A DNA stretch of 22,118 nt from a virus. The stretch is from positions 1 to 22,118 of IMG/VR virus record IMGVR_UViG_3300010413_000191. The stretch is one strand, 5' to 3'. The position numbers were made by a program, and so were the translations under genes. This document shows, in pieces, positions 4,284 through 11,631 of this stretch (position 1 is its first letter; each line of letters starts with the position of its first letter). Under the pieces are notes generated by a model. That model searched no databases and was not told the DNA's origin. It was given only the letters and a program-made list of their open reading frames with translations.

Positions 4284-5411
4284 ATGGGTTTCAAAGAAAA
4301 AATGGAAAAGATGAGGCAGGACTTATTGAAGACTACTCAGGACAGTATTGACAGACAAGAGGACACCGTTGAATATGGATCCATTTTCATCAAAGAGAAT
4401 ATACCTGCTGGCATAGGTTTTTGGAAGCCTGGATTTGGTGACCATTTGATTGACATAATGCCTTTTGAATTAGCAGGGCATTATCCAAGATACCCTAAAG
4501 GCACTTGGACATACGTCATTGATATTTGGGTGCATCAGAATGTAGGAGCTATGTTCGATCAGTTTGTTTGTCAAGTAAGAACACACAAAGAACCTGATCC
4601 TATGTGTGAATATCTTCGAGCCAATAAACTCCCATCTGATCAATGGAAAGTGATTGCCCCTAAAAGGCGTGTAGTCTACTTGATATGGTCACATGATACA
4701 CCTGAAGAAGAAGCACAAGGATTGAAAATATGGGAAGTAGCACATTGGAACACAGAAAAACATATCAGTGAAATTGCAAAACATCCTAAAGGTGGTGCAC
4801 CTATACCATTCTCAGATGTGGTAATGGGAAAACAGATTGCATTTAAGATCGTGAAGTCAGGGACTTACACTGATAGTCAAGGGAAAGAACGAGACAGCAT
4901 GGATTTTGTTGGTCATAGATTTGTTGAAAGAGAATCCCCAATACCTGAAAAGTTTGCTGATAAACTGTTTTCTTTAGATGCGTGCATTAAATTCAATCCT
5001 ACTTGGGAAGAACAGGCGACAGCTTTCCCCTTAGCTAGTAAACCTGAACCTACCTACGAGCCATCAACAGAAGGGATAAGAGCTCCTGCTCTTGAGAGAG
5101 AAAGTGGTCCTGGTGATTATCATACTGAATTACCTGAAACGACTCAAGAGGATTCCCCTTTTTATGATAACCCCCCAACAGTATTAGAATGCCCTGGTGG
5201 TGGGATAATAGGGGTTGATCTTGAGAAGTTAGATGACTGTAAAAAATGTTTAGTGTGGGATGAATGTTCGGATGAACAGGACAAGTTAAAAGGTAAGAGT
5301 AAAACCAAAGAAAAACCAAAGGAAGAAGTCGCTGTCAAGCTATTTAACTTAGAATCCAAAGAAGAAGAAGCTCCTAAAGGCATGATAAGAAGGAGAAGGA
5401 GGAGACAGTAA
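4284..5411 (+). CDS. gp32-like single-stranded DNA-binding protein
   Basis: A 375-residue protein resembling the long phage single-strand DNA-binding proteins. A lysine-rich N terminus is followed by an aromatic-rich core with KPGFGDHLIDIMPF, FDQFVCQVRTH and the segment APKRRVVYLIWSHD (about 125-138), typical of the OB-fold core of this phage family. Near the C terminus a Cys4 set, C...CKKC..(V)WDEC at about 302-330, looks like a small zinc-binding element. The product ends in a poly-arginine stretch (IRRRRRRQ) instead of the acidic tip usual in SSBs; see findings for an alternative acidic tail in the -1 frame. AAGGAGGT at 4271-4278 gives a very strong start. It would coat single strands for the polymerase and the RecA-like recombinase encoded next. 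Confidence 0.75.
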   Translation: MGFKEKMEKMRQDLLKTTQDSIDRQEDTVEYGSIFIKENIPAGIGFWKPGFGDHLIDIMPFELAGHYPRYPKGTWTYVIDIWVHQNVGAMFDQFVCQVRTHKEPDPMCEYLRANKLPSDQWKVIAPKRRVVYLIWSHDTPEEEAQGLKIWEVAHWNTEKHISEIAKHPKGGAPIPFSDVVMGKQIAFKIVKSGTYTDSQGKERDSMDFVGHRFVERESPIPEKFADKLFSLDACIKFNPTWEEQATAFPLASKPEPTYEPSTEGIRAPALERESGPGDYHTELPETTQEDSPFYDNPPTVLECPGGGIIGVDLEKLDDCKKCLVWDECSDEQDKLKGKSKTKEKPKEEVAVKLFNLESKEEEAPKGMIRRRRRRQ

Positions 5412-6525: not shown

Positions 6526-7169
6526 TGGCTAAAGGAAGTGCTAGTGAAAGAGAAACTTGTAAGACTCTAAGCCTATGGTGGACTGATGGGGAAAGGGATG
6601 ATATATTTTGGAGGACTGCAGGATCAGGTAGCAGAGCTACAATGAGAATGAAAAGTAGTGTGGATACTAAGTACCAATATGGAGATATCACTTTTACTGA
6701 TCCTATAGGTAAACCATTAATTGATCTCCTTTTGATAGAAAATAAGTCTGGGTACAAGGATACTATAAGCGTCCTAGATTTTGTAGACTCCCCCAAAAAA
6801 ATACCTCAACTCACAAAATGGATGGAAAAAGCTGAAAAAGAAAGGAGGGATGCTGAAAGACCTTATTCAGTAATAATCTTTAGAAGGACAAGAAAGTCTA
6901 AATGTATATTAATACCAATTGATCTATTTTCTTTGATAGAAAGTTATTCTGGAATATACTTAGGTCCTATGATAAGATTCTATAAACATAGGGAAGTAAC
7001 CAATTATATGATAGTTGAATTTGAACCATTTTTGCATTGGTTTCATCCTGCACAACAAGCTGTAAAGTTTTTAACTTTTAATAGTAAAATGAAGGGGAAA
7101 ATGGGTTTCACCTTTCACAACAAGAATTTTAATAGTAAACCTAAAAAACTAATAAGGAGAAAAAAATGA
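6525..7169 (+). CDS. PD-(D/E)XK-family nuclease, possible Holliday-junction resolvase
   Basis: A 214-residue protein with a clear PD-(D/E)XK core in its first third: E8 in SASERETCK, a conserved FWRTAGSGSRAT block, D54 in YGDI, and E72-x-K74 in LIENKSGY. This is the layout of Hjc-like and related phage nucleases. The middle, with 'ITKWMEKAEKERRDAERPYSVIIFRR', would complete the fold, and the C terminus is basic (KPKKLIRRKK), suiting DNA binding. The start overlaps the recombinase stop by one base (TAATG), so translation is probably coupled. Context after RecA and before Mre11/Rad50 supports a role in resolving recombination intermediates. The exact DNA substrate cannot be told. Confidence 0.75.
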   Translation: MAKGSASERETCKTLSLWWTDGERDDIFWRTAGSGSRATMRMKSSVDTKYQYGDITFTDPIGKPLIDLLLIENKSGYKDTISVLDFVDSPKKIPQLTKWMEKAEKERRDAERPYSVIIFRRTRKSKCILIPIDLFSLIESYSGIYLGPMIRFYKHREVTNYMIVEFEPFLHWFHPAQQAVKFLTFNSKMKGKMGFTFHNKNFNSKPKKLIRRKK

Positions 7170-7360
7170 ATAATGTTTATTTGGAACTTGATGCCATGAT
7201 TGAGGAATTAAAAGAAAGACTATTAGATGCCCACAAATTTGACGAAGGCAACTTCAGAGCAGGTACAAGAATAACAAAAGCACTTATTAAAACATCGAAG
7301 AAAGCAAAGGATCTAAGGCAGTTCATCTTTGCTGTTAAAAAACAACGGTCTTCAGCATAG
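7166..7360 (+). CDS. small histone H1-like DNA-binding protein
   Basis: A 64-residue basic protein. After an acidic helix (NNVYLELDAMIEELKERL), the segment KFDEGNFRAGTRITKALIKT is followed by SKKAKDLRQFIFAVKKQR. The 'GN.-AGTR-..KAL....K.AK.LR..I...K' pattern is that of the short H1/Hc1-like proteins found in Bacteroidetes and in several phages. Such proteins bind DNA non-specifically and may compact or protect it. The start overlaps the previous stop as ATGA (7166-7169). The stop TAG at 7358-7360 lies inside the left arm of the first intergenic hairpin. Family assignment is from pattern memory. Confidence 0.7.
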   Translation: MNNVYLELDAMIEELKERLLDAHKFDEGNFRAGTRITKALIKTSKKAKDLRQFIFAVKKQRSSA

Positions 7361-7381
7361 TTGACGCCAGCAACTATGCTG
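7353..7381 (+). promoter_or_regulatory. perfect 11-bp RNA hairpin over a stop codon
   Basis: CAGCATAGTTG (7353-7363) pairs perfectly with CAACTATGCTG (7371-7381) around a 7-nt loop. The left arm contains the TAG stop of the histone-like gene. No U-run follows, so it is not a standard intrinsic terminator. It could protect a 3' end, be a processing site, or be one arm of a larger structured leader with the hairpin that begins 4 nt later. Confidence 0.7.
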
Positions 7382-7385
7382 TTCG

Positions 7386-7446
7386 GTCACATGGGACTCG
7401 ATAGCAATGAGTTTTACCTCCTTTCTCTCATTGCGTCCCATGTGAC
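7386..7446 (+). promoter_or_regulatory. long hairpin with anti-Shine-Dalgarno loop
   Basis: A perfect 12-bp outer stem (GTCACATGGGAC, 7386-7397, with GTCCCATGTGAC, 7435-7446), a 6-nt one-sided bulge (7398-7403) and a perfect 8-bp inner stem (GCAATGAG, 7404-7411, with CTCATTGC, 7427-7434). The 15-nt loop (7412-7426) contains ACCTCCTTTCT, identical to the 3' tail of Bacillus-type 16S rRNA. Eight loop bases (7419-7426) are complementary to AGAAAGGA (7458-7465), the ribosome binding site of the next gene. Likely a cis translational control element or a small regulatory RNA. The structure is directly visible; the role is inferred. Confidence 0.75.
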
Positions 7447-7471
7447 TATTCTTATTTAGAAAGGAAACAAA

Positions 7472-8428
7472 ATGATAAAAACAATTGAAATAGGTAATTT
7501 TCAAAGCCACTCAGGTACCGTATTAGAATTATCAAATGGGGTAAACATAATAAAAGGGAGATCACATAGTGGCAAATCATCAATCGTAAGAGCACTTAAA
7601 TGGTGTCTCTTAAATCAACCAAGAGGAGATTATTTTGTAAGTTTTTTCAAAAATAAAAAGGACTCTACTATGGTTGGTGTAGGATTCTCCGAAGATACTT
7701 ATTTGATAAGAGAAAGAGGTTCCAATACTAATTGCTACCAGTTTGGGTATGATGAAGAAAATTCCACTATTGATCCGGGTGCTGACTTGCCAGAAGAAGT
7801 GACCAACATATCTAATATATCCAGCATAAATTTCCAAACACAAGATGAACAGCATTTTCTTTTTAAAGAATCCCCAGGAAAGGTAGCTAGGGAGCTTAAC
7901 AAGATTGTAGGGTTAGACATAATCGACCGTTCCATATCTAATCTCAATAAAATCGAAAATGAAAATAAAATAACAGTAAAGAATGCTGAAAAAGAAAAAG
8001 GGGAAATAGAGGAGAAACTGAGAGAATTAGATTTTGTTTTCGATTTAGAAAAAAGGGTAGAAAAAATAGAGGAGCTCACGAAAAAATTTGAAGAAGTGAG
8101 TAGCAAGAGGAATTTTATAATTGAGACAGTGAAACAAATAAAAGAACTAAAAGACAGTATAAAAGCAGATACGGAATGGTTATCTATAAAAGAACCTGTC
8201 CAAAAGCTTAAAATTCTTATGGAGAAGAGATCTTCAGAGCTAAATTCCTTAAATAAATTAAGAGCACTCATATCAGACATCAAAAAGTTTGAGATCGTCA
8301 AAGGGCGGGCCAATGGTGAAGTGGGCCAGCTACTTTTAAAGCGTTCTCAGATAGTAAATAGTGCTGAATATAAAAAAGAGTTTTGTCCTAAATGTGGTGC
8401 ACACATAAAGTACTGGAGGAAGAAATGA
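7472..8428 (+). CDS. N-terminal half of a split Rad50/SbcC (T4 gp46-like) ATPase with zinc hook
   Basis: A 318-residue protein that starts like Rad50/SbcC: IEIGNFQSHSG, then Walker A GRSHSGKS at 29-36, and a Q-loop region near SSINFQTQDEQHFLF. A long charged coiled coil (about 150-295) ends in the zinc-hook motif CPKCGAH at 305-311, seven residues before the stop. The returning coil and the Walker B/signature half are missing here but are encoded at 9336-10165, so the ATPase is assembled from separate chains. AGAAAGGA at 7458-7465 precedes the ATG and may be masked by the upstream hairpin loop. The stop overlaps the nuclease start as ATGA (8425-8428). Confidence 0.85.
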   Translation: MIKTIEIGNFQSHSGTVLELSNGVNIIKGRSHSGKSSIVRALKWCLLNQPRGDYFVSFFKNKKDSTMVGVGFSEDTYLIRERGSNTNCYQFGYDEENSTIDPGADLPEEVTNISNISSINFQTQDEQHFLFKESPGKVARELNKIVGLDIIDRSISNLNKIENENKITVKNAEKEKGEIEEKLRELDFVFDLEKRVEKIEELTKKFEEVSSKRNFIIETVKQIKELKDSIKADTEWLSIKEPVQKLKILMEKRSSELNSLNKLRALISDIKKFEIVKGRANGEVGQLLLKRSQIVNSAEYKKEFCPKCGAHIKYWRKK

Positions 8429-9339
8429 AATTTTTATGCACAGGTGATTGGCACATTGATACAAAAAGACCTTTACGTAGGAAAGATGACTATTGGGAAA
8501 CGGTGCAAAGAAAAATAAAATTCATTAAAAATCTTGCTATTAAAGAAAACTGCACCTCAATACTTCAACCAGGAGATTTTTTTGAATCCCACAGAGCAAG
8601 TGATTTTTTGAAAGCTTGGGCAATAGAAACATTTATTGATGTTACGGTAGATACGGTATATGGCCAACATGATTTAAGATACCATAACTCTGACACTTCA
8701 AATACACCTTTAGCGGTATTAGAATCTGCAGGGGTAATATGTGTACACAATACAGAAAGTTGTAGTTATAATGGAATAGGTATAAAAGGTGCTAGTTGGT
8801 TTGAAGATATACCTGAAATAGACAAAGAGAACAAGGACAACGATATAAACATATTGTTAGTTCACAAGATGATAATCAAAAATGAAAAATTATGGGAGGG
8901 ACAAGTTGATTATACGATGGGTAACATTCTGCTTAAAACTTCTGGGTATGATCTTATTGTGGCTGGCGATAATCATCAACATTTTACTATTGCTGATGGA
9001 CACGGGAGATACTTGGTCAACTGTGGTTCCTTATTTCGAACCAAAATCGATCAGACCAATCATACCCCTATAGTCTACATTTATGATACTTTAGATAGAA
9101 GTATTACATCCTACAAAGTCCCTTGTGAACCATTTAAAGATGTATTCGACATGGAAAAATATGAAGAAGATAAGAAGAGGGACGAAAAAATACAAGCGTT
9201 TGTAAAGAAGCTCCCAGGAAGTTCTGTGCCTTCCTCTATGGATTTTCCAAAAAGAGTTAAAGAGATAGTGGAAGAGGCTGATTTAGAGGATGATATTCGT
9301 AAGGAAGTTATAGAAATAATAGAAAGGACATTAAAATGA
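8425..9339 (+). CDS. Mre11/SbcD (T4 gp47-like) metallophosphoesterase nuclease
   Basis: A 304-residue calcineurin-like nuclease, partner of the split Rad50. Metal-binding motifs in order: GDWH (D8, H10), GDFFE (D51), GQHD (81-83, with Gln where GNHD is the usual form), LVHK (H147) and GDNHQHF (H184, H186). The acidic C-terminal helices (about 240-304) could bind the ATPase. The ATG at 8425 is preferred over the in-frame ATG at 8392: GGAGGA lies at 8415-8420, and the ATGA overlap with the upstream stop matches the operon style. The complex would open and resect DNA ends or hairpins. Gln in the third motif is, to my memory, not rare in phage members. Confidence 0.9.
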   Translation: MKFLCTGDWHIDTKRPLRRKDDYWETVQRKIKFIKNLAIKENCTSILQPGDFFESHRASDFLKAWAIETFIDVTVDTVYGQHDLRYHNSDTSNTPLAVLESAGVICVHNTESCSYNGIGIKGASWFEDIPEIDKENKDNDINILLVHKMIIKNEKLWEGQVDYTMGNILLKTSGYDLIVAGDNHQHFTIADGHGRYLVNCGSLFRTKIDQTNHTPIVYIYDTLDRSITSYKVPCEPFKDVFDMEKYEEDKKRDEKIQAFVKKLPGSSVPSSMDFPKRVKEIVEEADLEDDIRKEVIEIIERTLK

Positions 9340-9566
9340 TACAAGAAGAATTAGAGAAGATAGAAAGACAGATTCAACAGGCTAGGAGAGAAATAGATCA
9401 ATCACAAGGAAGATTAGACGCCTTATGTGATACCTTATCAAAAGAGTACAACACAACACCTGAAGAAGCAGACAAAAGAATAAAAGAAATGGAAAACTAC
9501 CTAAGTAAAACAGAAAAGCTGATAGAGAAGTCATGGAAAGATCTAAAGGAGAATTACGAATGGTAG
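9336..9566 (+). CDS. small coiled-coil protein between the Rad50 halves
   Basis: A 76-residue, almost wholly helical and charged protein (heptad-like ELEKIERQIQQARREIDQSQ, later EADKRIKEMENYLSKTEKLI). It has no catalytic motif. Its start overlaps the nuclease stop as ATGA (9336-9339), and its stop overlaps the next gene by 7 bases. Its place between the nuclease and the C-terminal ATPase half suggests that it supplies part of the returning coiled coil of a Rad50 encoded in three pieces, or bridges the halves. That role is inference; the coiled coil and the operon position are seen directly. Confidence 0.75.
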   Translation: MIQEELEKIERQIQQARREIDQSQGRLDALCDTLSKEYNTTPEEADKRIKEMENYLSKTEKLIEKSWKDLKENYEW

Positions 9567-10165
9567 ATATTAAAGAAGCAAGAAAGTTCTTAGATGAATG
9601 CATGTCCGAGTTCAAATATTGTGAGAGAAAGAATGAGGAACTAGAAGATCTTCTCAAAAGAGAAAAAAGAAAGACGGAAGCTATCAAGATAGTAAGAGCC
9701 ACCGTGCAAACTGCTGCTCAAGAAGTGCAAAAGAATTTGGAATACCATCTCAGTGACCTAGTAACCACCGCTTTGCACGCTATATTTCCTGATGACATTA
9801 ACTTCATAGCAAAAATAGAACAGAGGAGGGGACAAACGGAATGTGATTTACTTTTTGAAGAAAAAGATAACAAGTACAAACCGTTAGATGGTAGTGGATA
9901 TGGTCCTGTAGATGTTGCAACTTTTGTGTTTAGGCTCTGTTTTTGGTCTCTAAAAAAGAATAGACCAACATTTATACTTGATGAACCATTTAGAAATCTT
10001 AGCCCTAATTTTCATTCAAAGATATCTGAGTTAATTAAGGAGTTAAGCGAGGAGTTAGGGATACAATTTATAATTGTATCCCATCAGGATGAAATAAATA
10101 TTGCAGCAGACAGAACATTTTATGTAGACAAGGTAGATGATAAATCAATGGTAAAAACCCTATGA
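9560..10165 (+). CDS. C-terminal half of the split Rad50/SbcC ATPase
   Basis: A 201-residue protein carrying the second half of an ABC-type SMC/Rad50 head: N-terminal coiled coil (about 1-65), signature-like LDGSGYGPVDVATF at 109-122, Walker B TFILDEPF with D141/E142, D-loop-like RNLSP, and H-loop IIVSHQDE with H175. Walker A is absent and is supplied by the gene at 7472. The ATG at 9560 is chosen over the in-frame ATG at 9533 because AAAGGAG lies at 9545-9551. The stop TGA overlaps the convergent holin-like gene's stop (10160-10165). Together with 7472 and 8425 it completes a Mre11-Rad50 type end-processing complex. Confidence 0.85.
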   Translation: MVDIKEARKFLDECMSEFKYCERKNEELEDLLKREKRKTEAIKIVRATVQTAAQEVQKNLEYHLSDLVTTALHAIFPDDINFIAKIEQRRGQTECDLLFEEKDNKYKPLDGSGYGPVDVATFVFRLCFWSLKKNRPTFILDEPFRNLSPNFHSKISELIKELSEELGIQFIIVSHQDEINIAADRTFYVDKVDDKSMVKTL

Positions 10166-10174: not shown

Positions 10175-10399
10175 GTCTTTGAACAACAATTTATTTTTAT
10201 CCGCTGATCCTTGACTACTACCGAACACCCAATTTATTACTGTAATAAATGCTGCTCCCCACCATCCGACTATAAGTCCTAAATGTTCTTTTATAAACGA
10301 TGGTATATTTTCAGGTATATTATTAAAAAAGTATAAGGATGTAATAAAAATAAATCCTGAAATGACTACTATCGCTAACACCATTTGGTTTCTGTTCAT
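10160..10399 (-). CDS. holin-like two-TM membrane protein
   Basis: A 79-residue membrane protein: TM1 at about 5-25 (MVLAIVVISGFIFITSLYFF), TM2 at about 41-62 (LGLIVGWWGAAFITVINWVF), then FGSSQGSADKNKLL and a charged tail. A hydrophobic segment ending in 'FGSS.GS..K' is typical of phage holins of the 3-TM GTA-holin type, which make the membrane lesion at lysis. The ATG at 10399 is preferred over an in-frame upstream ATG at 10435 because it overlaps the upstream stop as ATGA with GAGGGA before it. No endolysin is visible in the window. Confidence 0.65.
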   Translation of the reverse strand: MNRNQMVLAIVVISGFIFITSLYFFNNIPENIPSFIKEHLGLIVGWWGAAFITVINWVFGSSQGSADKNKLLFKDKNTS

Positions 10400-11631
10400 A
10401 TATCCCTCACATTCATTTGTATATCTTTCTCCCATTTATTACCTTCACTCGTAACACATTTAAAAGTAAATTTGTAGGGGGAGTTGGATTCAGCACCATC
10501 TTTTATTCTAACTCTTAAAATAGTGTCAGTTTGAACATCAAAAGAACCACTTATATACACTGATGTATCCTCTTCACCTGAAGCATCCACACAAGTTACC
10601 GACGAACTTGACAGCAATACAGATTCTTCATCAGTGTCTACCACAGCAGAAAACTCTACTCCTATTGCATACTCCTCATAAGGTTGCTTAGAAAATTCTT
10701 CCAGCAGAGGTGGGTACCCGGGAGACTCCATGGTGAACACTAGAGAACAAGTTCTTTGGTATGGAGGTTCTGTTGTAGTAGTGCTTGTTGTGGATATTGT
10801 ACTTGTTGTGGATATTGTACTTGTTGTGGATGCAGTACTGCTAGTGCTTGAACTGGTGGACATAGTACTGCTGGTACTTGACGAACTGGTAGTAGTACTT
10901 GATGAACTAGAAGTGGTACTGCTAGTGCTTGAACTGGTGGACGTGGTACTACTGGTGCTCACACTCGTGGATGTGGTACTGAAAGTACTGGAGACTGTTG
11001 ATGCAGTACTGCTAGTACTAGAGCTGGACATAGTACTGCTGGTACTTGAACTGGTGGACGTGGTACTACTGGTGCTAGAAGTAGATGCAGTACTGCTGGT
11101 ACTTGAACTGGTGGATGCAGTACTGCTGGTACTTGAAGAACTGGAAGTGGTACTACTGGTAGTAGAAACGGATGCAGTACTGCTGGTACTCGAACTACTG
11201 GAGGTTGTAGATTCAGTACTGCTGGTACTGGAGGTTGTAGATTCAGTACTGCTAGTACTGGAAGTAGATGCAGTACTGCTGGTACTCGAACTACTGGAGG
11301 TTGTAGATTCAGTACTGCTGGTACTAGAGCTGCTTGAACTGGTGGACGTGGTACTGCTGGTACTAGAGCTGCTTGAACTCGTGGATGTGGTACTACTGGT
11401 ACTGGAAGTAGATGCAGTGCTGCTAGTACTGGAACTGCTTGAACTGGTGGACGTGGTACTAATAGTACTTGAACTGCTAGAGGTTGTGGATATGGTACTA
11501 CTGGTACTCGAAGTGGATGCAGTACTAGTGGTACTTGAACTGCTAGTAGTGGAAGTAGTTGTAAGTGGTTTCATGTCCCCTTCTAATGGGGCCATGTCAC
11601 CTTCAAAAATATTTATATCGCCATTACTCAC
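10396..11631 (-). CDS. Ser/Thr-rich mucin-like phage surface protein with C-terminal Ig-like domain
   Basis: A 411-residue protein in three parts. Residues 1-23 hold a repeated GDM-x-PL motif (EGDMAPLEGDMKPL). Residues 24-287 are almost only Ser and Thr with scattered Ala, Ile, Val and Glu, a low-complexity spacer of about 264 residues. Residues 288-411 form a compact domain (CSLVFTMESPGYPPLL ... VRIKDGAESNSPYKFTFKCV ... KDIQMNVRDI) resembling Ig-like beta domains of small phage virion proteins. The GTG start at 11631 has AAGGAGGGGG 5-6 nt upstream. No signal peptide. The spacer could be a flexible or O-glycosylated stalk; function unknown. The low-complexity gene has its own direct repeats. 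Its stop overlaps the holin-like start. Confidence 0.7.
   Translation of the reverse strand: MSNGDINIFEGDMAPLEGDMKPLTTTSTTSSSSTTSTASTSSTSSTISTTSSSSSTISTTSTSSSSSSTSSTASTSSTSSTTSTSSSSSSTSSTTSTSSSSSSTSSTESTTSSSSSTSSTASTSSTSSTESTTSSTSSTESTTSSSSSTSSTASVSTTSSTTSSSSSTSSTASTSSSTSSTASTSSTSSTTSTSSSTSSTMSSSSTSSTASTVSSTFSTTSTSVSTSSTTSTSSSTSSTTSSSSSTTTSSSSTSSTMSTSSSTSSTASTTSTISTTSTISTTSTTTTEPPYQRTCSLVFTMESPGYPPLLEEFSKQPYEEYAIGVEFSAVVDTDEESVLLSSSSVTCVDASGEEDTSVYISGSFDVQTDTILRVRIKDGAESNSPYKFTFKCVTSEGNKWEKDIQMNVRDI
10771..11562 (-). repeat. degenerate Ser/Thr codon repeat array
   Basis: About 790 bp made of AGT/ACT/ACC/AGC/TCC-type codons, read on the + strand as variations of AGTACTGCTGGTACT. It encodes the Ser/Thr spacer of the 10396-11631 gene. 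Unit borders drift, as expected for a coding minisatellite grown by slippage or unequal recombination. An 18-nt unit (CTTGTTGTGGATATTGTA) is tandem at about 10784-10819. Confidence 0.85.
11171..11325. repeat. 59-nt identical direct repeat pair
   Basis: The 59 bases at 11171-11229 recur without a mismatch at 11267-11325, a 96-bp (32-codon) offset. A shorter part (about 22 nt, GAGGTTGTAGATTCAGTACT onward) appears a third time in between. The offset keeps the reading frame, suggesting recent in-frame duplication. Confidence 0.75.

Follow-up and report, generated by a model that had tools for sequence, protein, structure and literature searches.

The gap between the hc1 and rad50N genes of an uncultivated phage is predicted to fold into two strong hairpins in tandem, here termed H1 and H2. 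The stretch analyzed, hereafter the window, is the 22,118-base IMG/VR virus record IMGVR_UViG_3300010413_000191. We put at about an even chance the proposal that the two hairpins act as an intercistronic mRNA element, setting the hc1 part of the transcript apart from the rad50N-mre11 part, contributing stabilization and possibly RNase III-type processing, and perhaps damping rad50N initiation through the H2 loop. The proposal builds on the fold predicted for the gap, on where that fold lies, on the complementarity of the H2 loop to the next Shine-Dalgarno (SD) sequence and on the recurrence of structure behind hc1 genes; from these we infer stabilization, processing and damping.

The element lies within a plus-strand operon that begins with DNA polymerase A (carrying a uracil-DNA-glycosylase domain), a clamp loader, two genes of unknown function and a UvsX/RecA-like gene. 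It continues with a PDDEXK/RusA-like gene, the Hc1-like gene, the N-terminal half of Rad50/SbcC, Mre11/SbcD, a 76-aa gene and the C-terminal half of Rad50. The Hc1-like open reading frame (7166-7360, plus strand; 64 aa; Pfam Hc1, E 1.2e-6) has its stop codon, 7358-7360, inside the 5' arm of H1. The gene 3' of the element, rad50N (7472-8428, plus strand), matches PHROG 16465, an exonuclease (E 9e-35), and Pfam AAA_23; a single-query search found no close protein relatives of its product. Rad50/SbcC is coded as two halves, 7472-8428 and 9533-10165, on either side of mre11 (8392-9339), an arrangement also present in about 60 related loci. The rad50N product ends in FCPKCGAH, which resembles the zinc-hook motif, as if the gene had been split at the hook. 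Elsewhere in the window, the uracil-DNA-glycosylase-type domain is fused to the N-terminus of the polymerase (46-2718), and a minus-strand gene (10396-11631) is built mainly from degenerate repeats (AGTACTGCTGGTACT and variants) coding for a Ser/Thr-rich stretch. A search of genome contigs with the clamp loader returned only distant matches, mostly in metagenome bins, and no host was found.

H1 (7353-7381, plus strand; -15.7 kcal/mol) is a perfect hairpin with an 11-bp stem and a 7-nt loop, and it overlaps the hc1 stop. H2 (7385-7447, plus strand; -31.4 kcal/mol) is a two-part hairpin of 13 + 8 pairs with a one-sided 6-nt bulge. Its lower stem (7385-7397/7435-7447) contains 12 Watson-Crick pairs and one G-U pair, the bulge (TCGATA, 7398-7403) occurs on the 5' side only, and the upper stem (7404-7411/7427-7434) has 8 bp. 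The 15-nt loop, TTTTACCTCCTTTCT (7412-7426, plus strand), holds the anti-Shine-Dalgarno (aSD) 11-mer ACCTCCTTTCT (7416-7426). This 11-mer is the 3' tail of Bacillus-type 16S rRNA; it may or may not match the tail of the phage's own host. An A/T-rich linker (7448-7457, plus strand) connects H2 to the rad50N SD, AGAAAGGA (7458-7465, plus strand), and the ATG follows at 7472. Loop bases TCCTTTCT (7419-7426) are complementary to this SD.

A preliminary description of this DNA had reported a hairpin with an aSD loop within 7386-7465. Its coordinates and letters check, as do the 15-nt loop with its 11-mer and the exact pairing of eight loop bases with the rad50N SD. Its "20-bp" stem is indeed in two parts, and the exact count is 20 Watson-Crick pairs plus one G-U; the distance from stem to SD, given there as 11 nt, is 10 nt. 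That description overlooked H1. Because this second, perfect hairpin stands beside H2, the hc1-rad50N gap is best regarded as a tandem of two hairpins.

The predicted structure of the gap is well beyond chance. The segment 7370-7480 folds with an MFE of -34.9 (z -4.8), none of 200 shuffles being equally stable, and z reaches -8.6 once H1 is included. Further, among perfect hairpin stems that contain G+C, none found in the 22-kb contig is longer than that of H2 (12 bp). The strong tandem fold is confined to the hc1-rad50N gap.

None of the relatives shares the sequence of the element. No DNA relatives were found in phages, plasmids or the fetched loci, and the H2 upper hairpin has no exact copy in any other viral contig. 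Protein-guided scans yielded some 130 IMG/VR loci; counting the window itself, an Hc1-like gene is present in 15 distinct loci. According to the preliminary description, phages that keep the gene order with neither stem nor loop conserved would refute its interpretation. Taken literally, that is what is seen in L016 and L009, in which the hc1-rad50N order is kept and both stem and loop are missing; but these relatives are distant (36-41% identity in rad50N), and alignment of non-coding DNA is therefore not expected. The closest relative, L079 (60% identity in PDDEXK, 53% in hc1, 46% in rad50N), has a hairpin, GGGGTGGT/ACCACCCC, that is unrelated to H2; in the flanks of this hairpin, CCTCC at the hc1 stop is paired with GGAGG, the SD of the gene that follows. 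L031 and L135 have yet other hairpins, which lack U-tracts.

What recurs after hc1 is the position of structure, not its sequence, and this is our strongest comparative result. The 120 nt that follow the ends of hc1-like genes have a median fold z of -2.07 (15 loci), compared with about -0.1 for the ends of recA, PDDEXK, rad50N, mre11 and rad50C in the same phages (338 ends in total), whose medians by group range from -0.41 to 0.05. The one-sided p for this difference, in which kinship is ignored, is 0.0004, or 0.0013 without the window; the comparison was devised after the first hairpins had been seen. Excess structure is slight or absent at six of the 15 hc1 loci (z above -0.5), and in L042 the structured stretch falls inside the next gene, not in the gap. 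The structures of the relatives occupy the coding strand, and most of them fall in the interval from the hc1 stop to the following SD. Related phages thus place different RNA structures at the same spot. That distant phages carry dissimilar structures behind one and the same small gene suggests a common requirement for an RNA element at this site.

Following up this recurrence led to a candidate RNA family that is absent from Rfam. An 84-nt RNA, termed R1, is found directly behind the Hc1-like gene in L016 (3845-3928), L018 (3379-3462) and L141 (7158-7241), and about 160 nt further on in L017 (2771-2855). Its fold comprises P1, P2 and a three-way junction of two hairpins, with a likely pseudoknot between GGAC in the P3 loop and GTCC between P2 and P1. 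Compensatory changes support P1 and P2: three pairs are changed on both sides, and 97% of cells are paired, against 22-62% in slid controls. R1 matched no Rfam family and no GenBank phage. Because only four sequences are available, it is a candidate, not a proven, RNA family. The window does not belong to it, since no covariance-model match occurs there up to E 10; a match to the R1 DNA motif in L143 was dropped because it lies inside a coding frame.

How might such an element act? H1 and H2 would split the replication-recombination transcript into an hc1 part and a rad50N-mre11 part, blocking 3'-5' decay into hc1 and decoupling the translation of rad50N from that of hc1. Judging from the coordinates, a ribosome at the hc1 stop would disturb H1 but not H2; translation of rad50N should therefore start independently, from the gene's own SD. 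H2 combines two stems, a one-sided bulge and roughly two helical turns, and is thus a plausible site of RNase III-type processing. Its aSD-like loop, for its part, may base-pair with the nearby SD on the 3' side and so modestly damp initiation at rad50N. The hairpins are not simple terminators, given that H2 fails the terminator score and that the other hairpins lack U-tracts: at the H2 tail no intrinsic terminator was found (best d'Aubenton-Carafa d of -20, where a value above 0, with a GC-rich stem and a U-tract, would pass), and H2 was rejected as one.

An important question is whether the aSD identity of the loop has any meaning. It could be accidental: in a genome with purine-rich SDs, any C/U-rich loop would resemble the 16S tail and be complementary to many of the SDs, and the hairpin alone would matter. 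We consider this reading, which is compatible with the separation of transcript parts proposed above, to have somewhat less than an even chance. Composition-matched shuffles of the C/U-rich loop reach its pairing energy with the rad50N SD 4% of the time, and the loop sequence is not conserved in relatives. Moreover, an aSD-like hexamer, on either strand, occurs in the loops of a few dozen of the 1235 hairpins in the fetched loci, near a simple chance estimate; many of these few dozen are nested. Against an accident, the exact 11-mer occurs once in the contig, whereas a dinucleotide shuffle is expected to hold it just 0.01 times. Other exact matches to ACCTCCTTTCT in related loci were set aside: those on the minus strand are ordinary SDs of plus-strand genes, and three distinct ones on the plus strand lie outside comparable hairpin loops. 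Separately, three strong hairpins in other loci carry SD or aSD sequence in their loops: L070 7490-7525 (loop GCTCCTTTCTC, about 50 nt 5' of a gene with the SD AAAGGAGA), L081 5876-5906 (AAAAGGAGGG in the loop, 5' of a recA-like gene) and L088 11815-11851 (GGAAAGGAGGG in the loop).

Alternatively, the H2 loop and the rad50N SD could form an H-type pseudoknot that keeps translation repressed until it is undone by a ribosome, by a phage protein or through processing. We regard this as unlikely, although such a lock could add to the separation explanation. The preliminary description had raised masking of this kind and had doubted that the linker could span the stem. That objection is softer than it was stated: an ideal stacked A-form stem of 21 bp measures about 53 A, which the 11 backbone links would cover at 4.9 A per link, and the short linker thus does not forbid the pseudoknot, even if it would be nearly fully stretched. 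The pairing itself is a perfect complement of 8 bp, the longest in the gap (p ~0.01 versus shuffled gaps), with a duplex energy of -10.2 kcal/mol before the costs of pseudoknot loops. Pairing and geometry both allow masking, then, but the two relatives that keep the gene order have neither the stem nor the loop. Further, other SDs of the contig pair with the loop better than its own does, namely those at 4284 (11 bp, -15.8), 3768 (-12.7) and 11631 (-16.4), so the loop is not adapted to the SD of rad50N in particular; better pairing elsewhere is expected of any perfect aSD sequence.

Complementarity between gap and SD is nominally significant in the window and in L079 (p 0.012 each), where the CCTCC/GGAGG pairing is reached by a different fold; the further seven relatives examined do not reach significance. 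In L009 a GCTCC/GGAGC pairing is possible, though not significant, and L016, L018, L017, L135 and L031 likewise show no significant complementarity. Across these positional counterparts of the element, none of which can be aligned with it, Fisher's p is 0.016 with the window and 0.08 without it, so that the relatives taken together fall short of significance. If the loop does regulate translation, it would constitute a compact phage switch between the gene for a DNA-binding protein and those for the Rad50/Mre11 nuclease.

It is improbable that the palindrome acts at the DNA level, in recombination or replication, and not as RNA. Both arms fold almost equally well on either strand, and SbcC- and SbcD-like genes are next in order. 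L079 (near 8356) and L135 (near 2686) share about 80% identity across PDDEXK and most of hc1, whereas past the end of hc1 they no longer align; this end is therefore a recombination boundary. Weighing on the other side, the contig holds no second copy of the element, and the relatives' structures lie on the coding strand, just 5' of the SD. Nor does the skew switch at 7.4 kb, and a replication origin at the element was accordingly rejected.

A trans-acting RNA is more improbable still. Such an RNA, a phage copy of the 16S aSD tail cut from the replication transcript, would bind the SDs of phage or host mRNAs and shift translation during infection; the SD of the gene at 4284, with its 11-bp match, would be one target, and processing out of the operon mRNA is possible. 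The preliminary description had thought that this model deserved attention, but positive evidence for it did not emerge: no promoter-like site starts within 7012-7500 on the plus strand, an intrinsic terminator is lacking, conservation is absent, and Rfam gave no gathering-level match in the window, only chance matches within the element. Among the latter, membership of the upper hairpin in the LhrC/rli22 clan (Rfam CL00114) was rejected, its 13.7 bits (E 7.3, chance level) comparing with a cut-off of 80.

Set against known systems, the loop architecture resembles that of the alpha-r14/cuckoo and LhrC sRNAs (PMC10746234, PMC4132741), and by this analogy the former, followed by LhrC, would be the nearest known architecture for an RNA acting in trans. 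The alphaproteobacterial alpha-r14/NfeR1/"cuckoo" sRNAs resemble H2 in that their aSD motif is exposed in the loop of a hairpin whose stem is free in sequence (PMC10746234). They are, however, separate trans-acting sRNAs with three CCUCCUCCC hairpins, whereas H2 has a single aSD loop, with the motif ACCUCCUUUCU in place of CCUCCUCCC, lies inside an operon with no promoter-like site or terminator of its own in place, and is accompanied by an H1 loop that lacks the motif. The LhrC family of Listeria, placed in one Rfam clan with rli22, likewise has a loop rich in C and U that can pair with SD regions; its loop motif, too, is present in three copies, and H2 differs in lacking the UCCC motif and in not being a separate RNA. 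In type I toxin mRNAs such as aapA3 (PMC6733600), an upstream CU-rich segment can sequester the SD in cis, as the H2 loop might. There, the aSD-SD pairing is a simple local hairpin or a long-distance interaction, whereas H2 would need a loop-to-linear pseudoknot across a 21-bp stem.

The separation of transcript parts that we favor has its closest parallels in hairpins of polycistronic messages. An intercistronic hairpin stabilizes the pufBA segment in Rhodobacter (PMC10253847), and the RNase III hairpins of phage T7 mature and protect polycistronic mRNAs (PMC4858673, PMC8708148). The T7 sites, of which R1.1 is an example, are, like H2, phage intercistronic hairpins located just 5' of the next start, with two stems, an internal irregularity and about two helical turns. 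H2 is predicted to have this shape, a two-part intercistronic stem of about two turns 5' of a start; it differs from R1.1 in its one-sided 6-nt bulge and its 15-nt loop.
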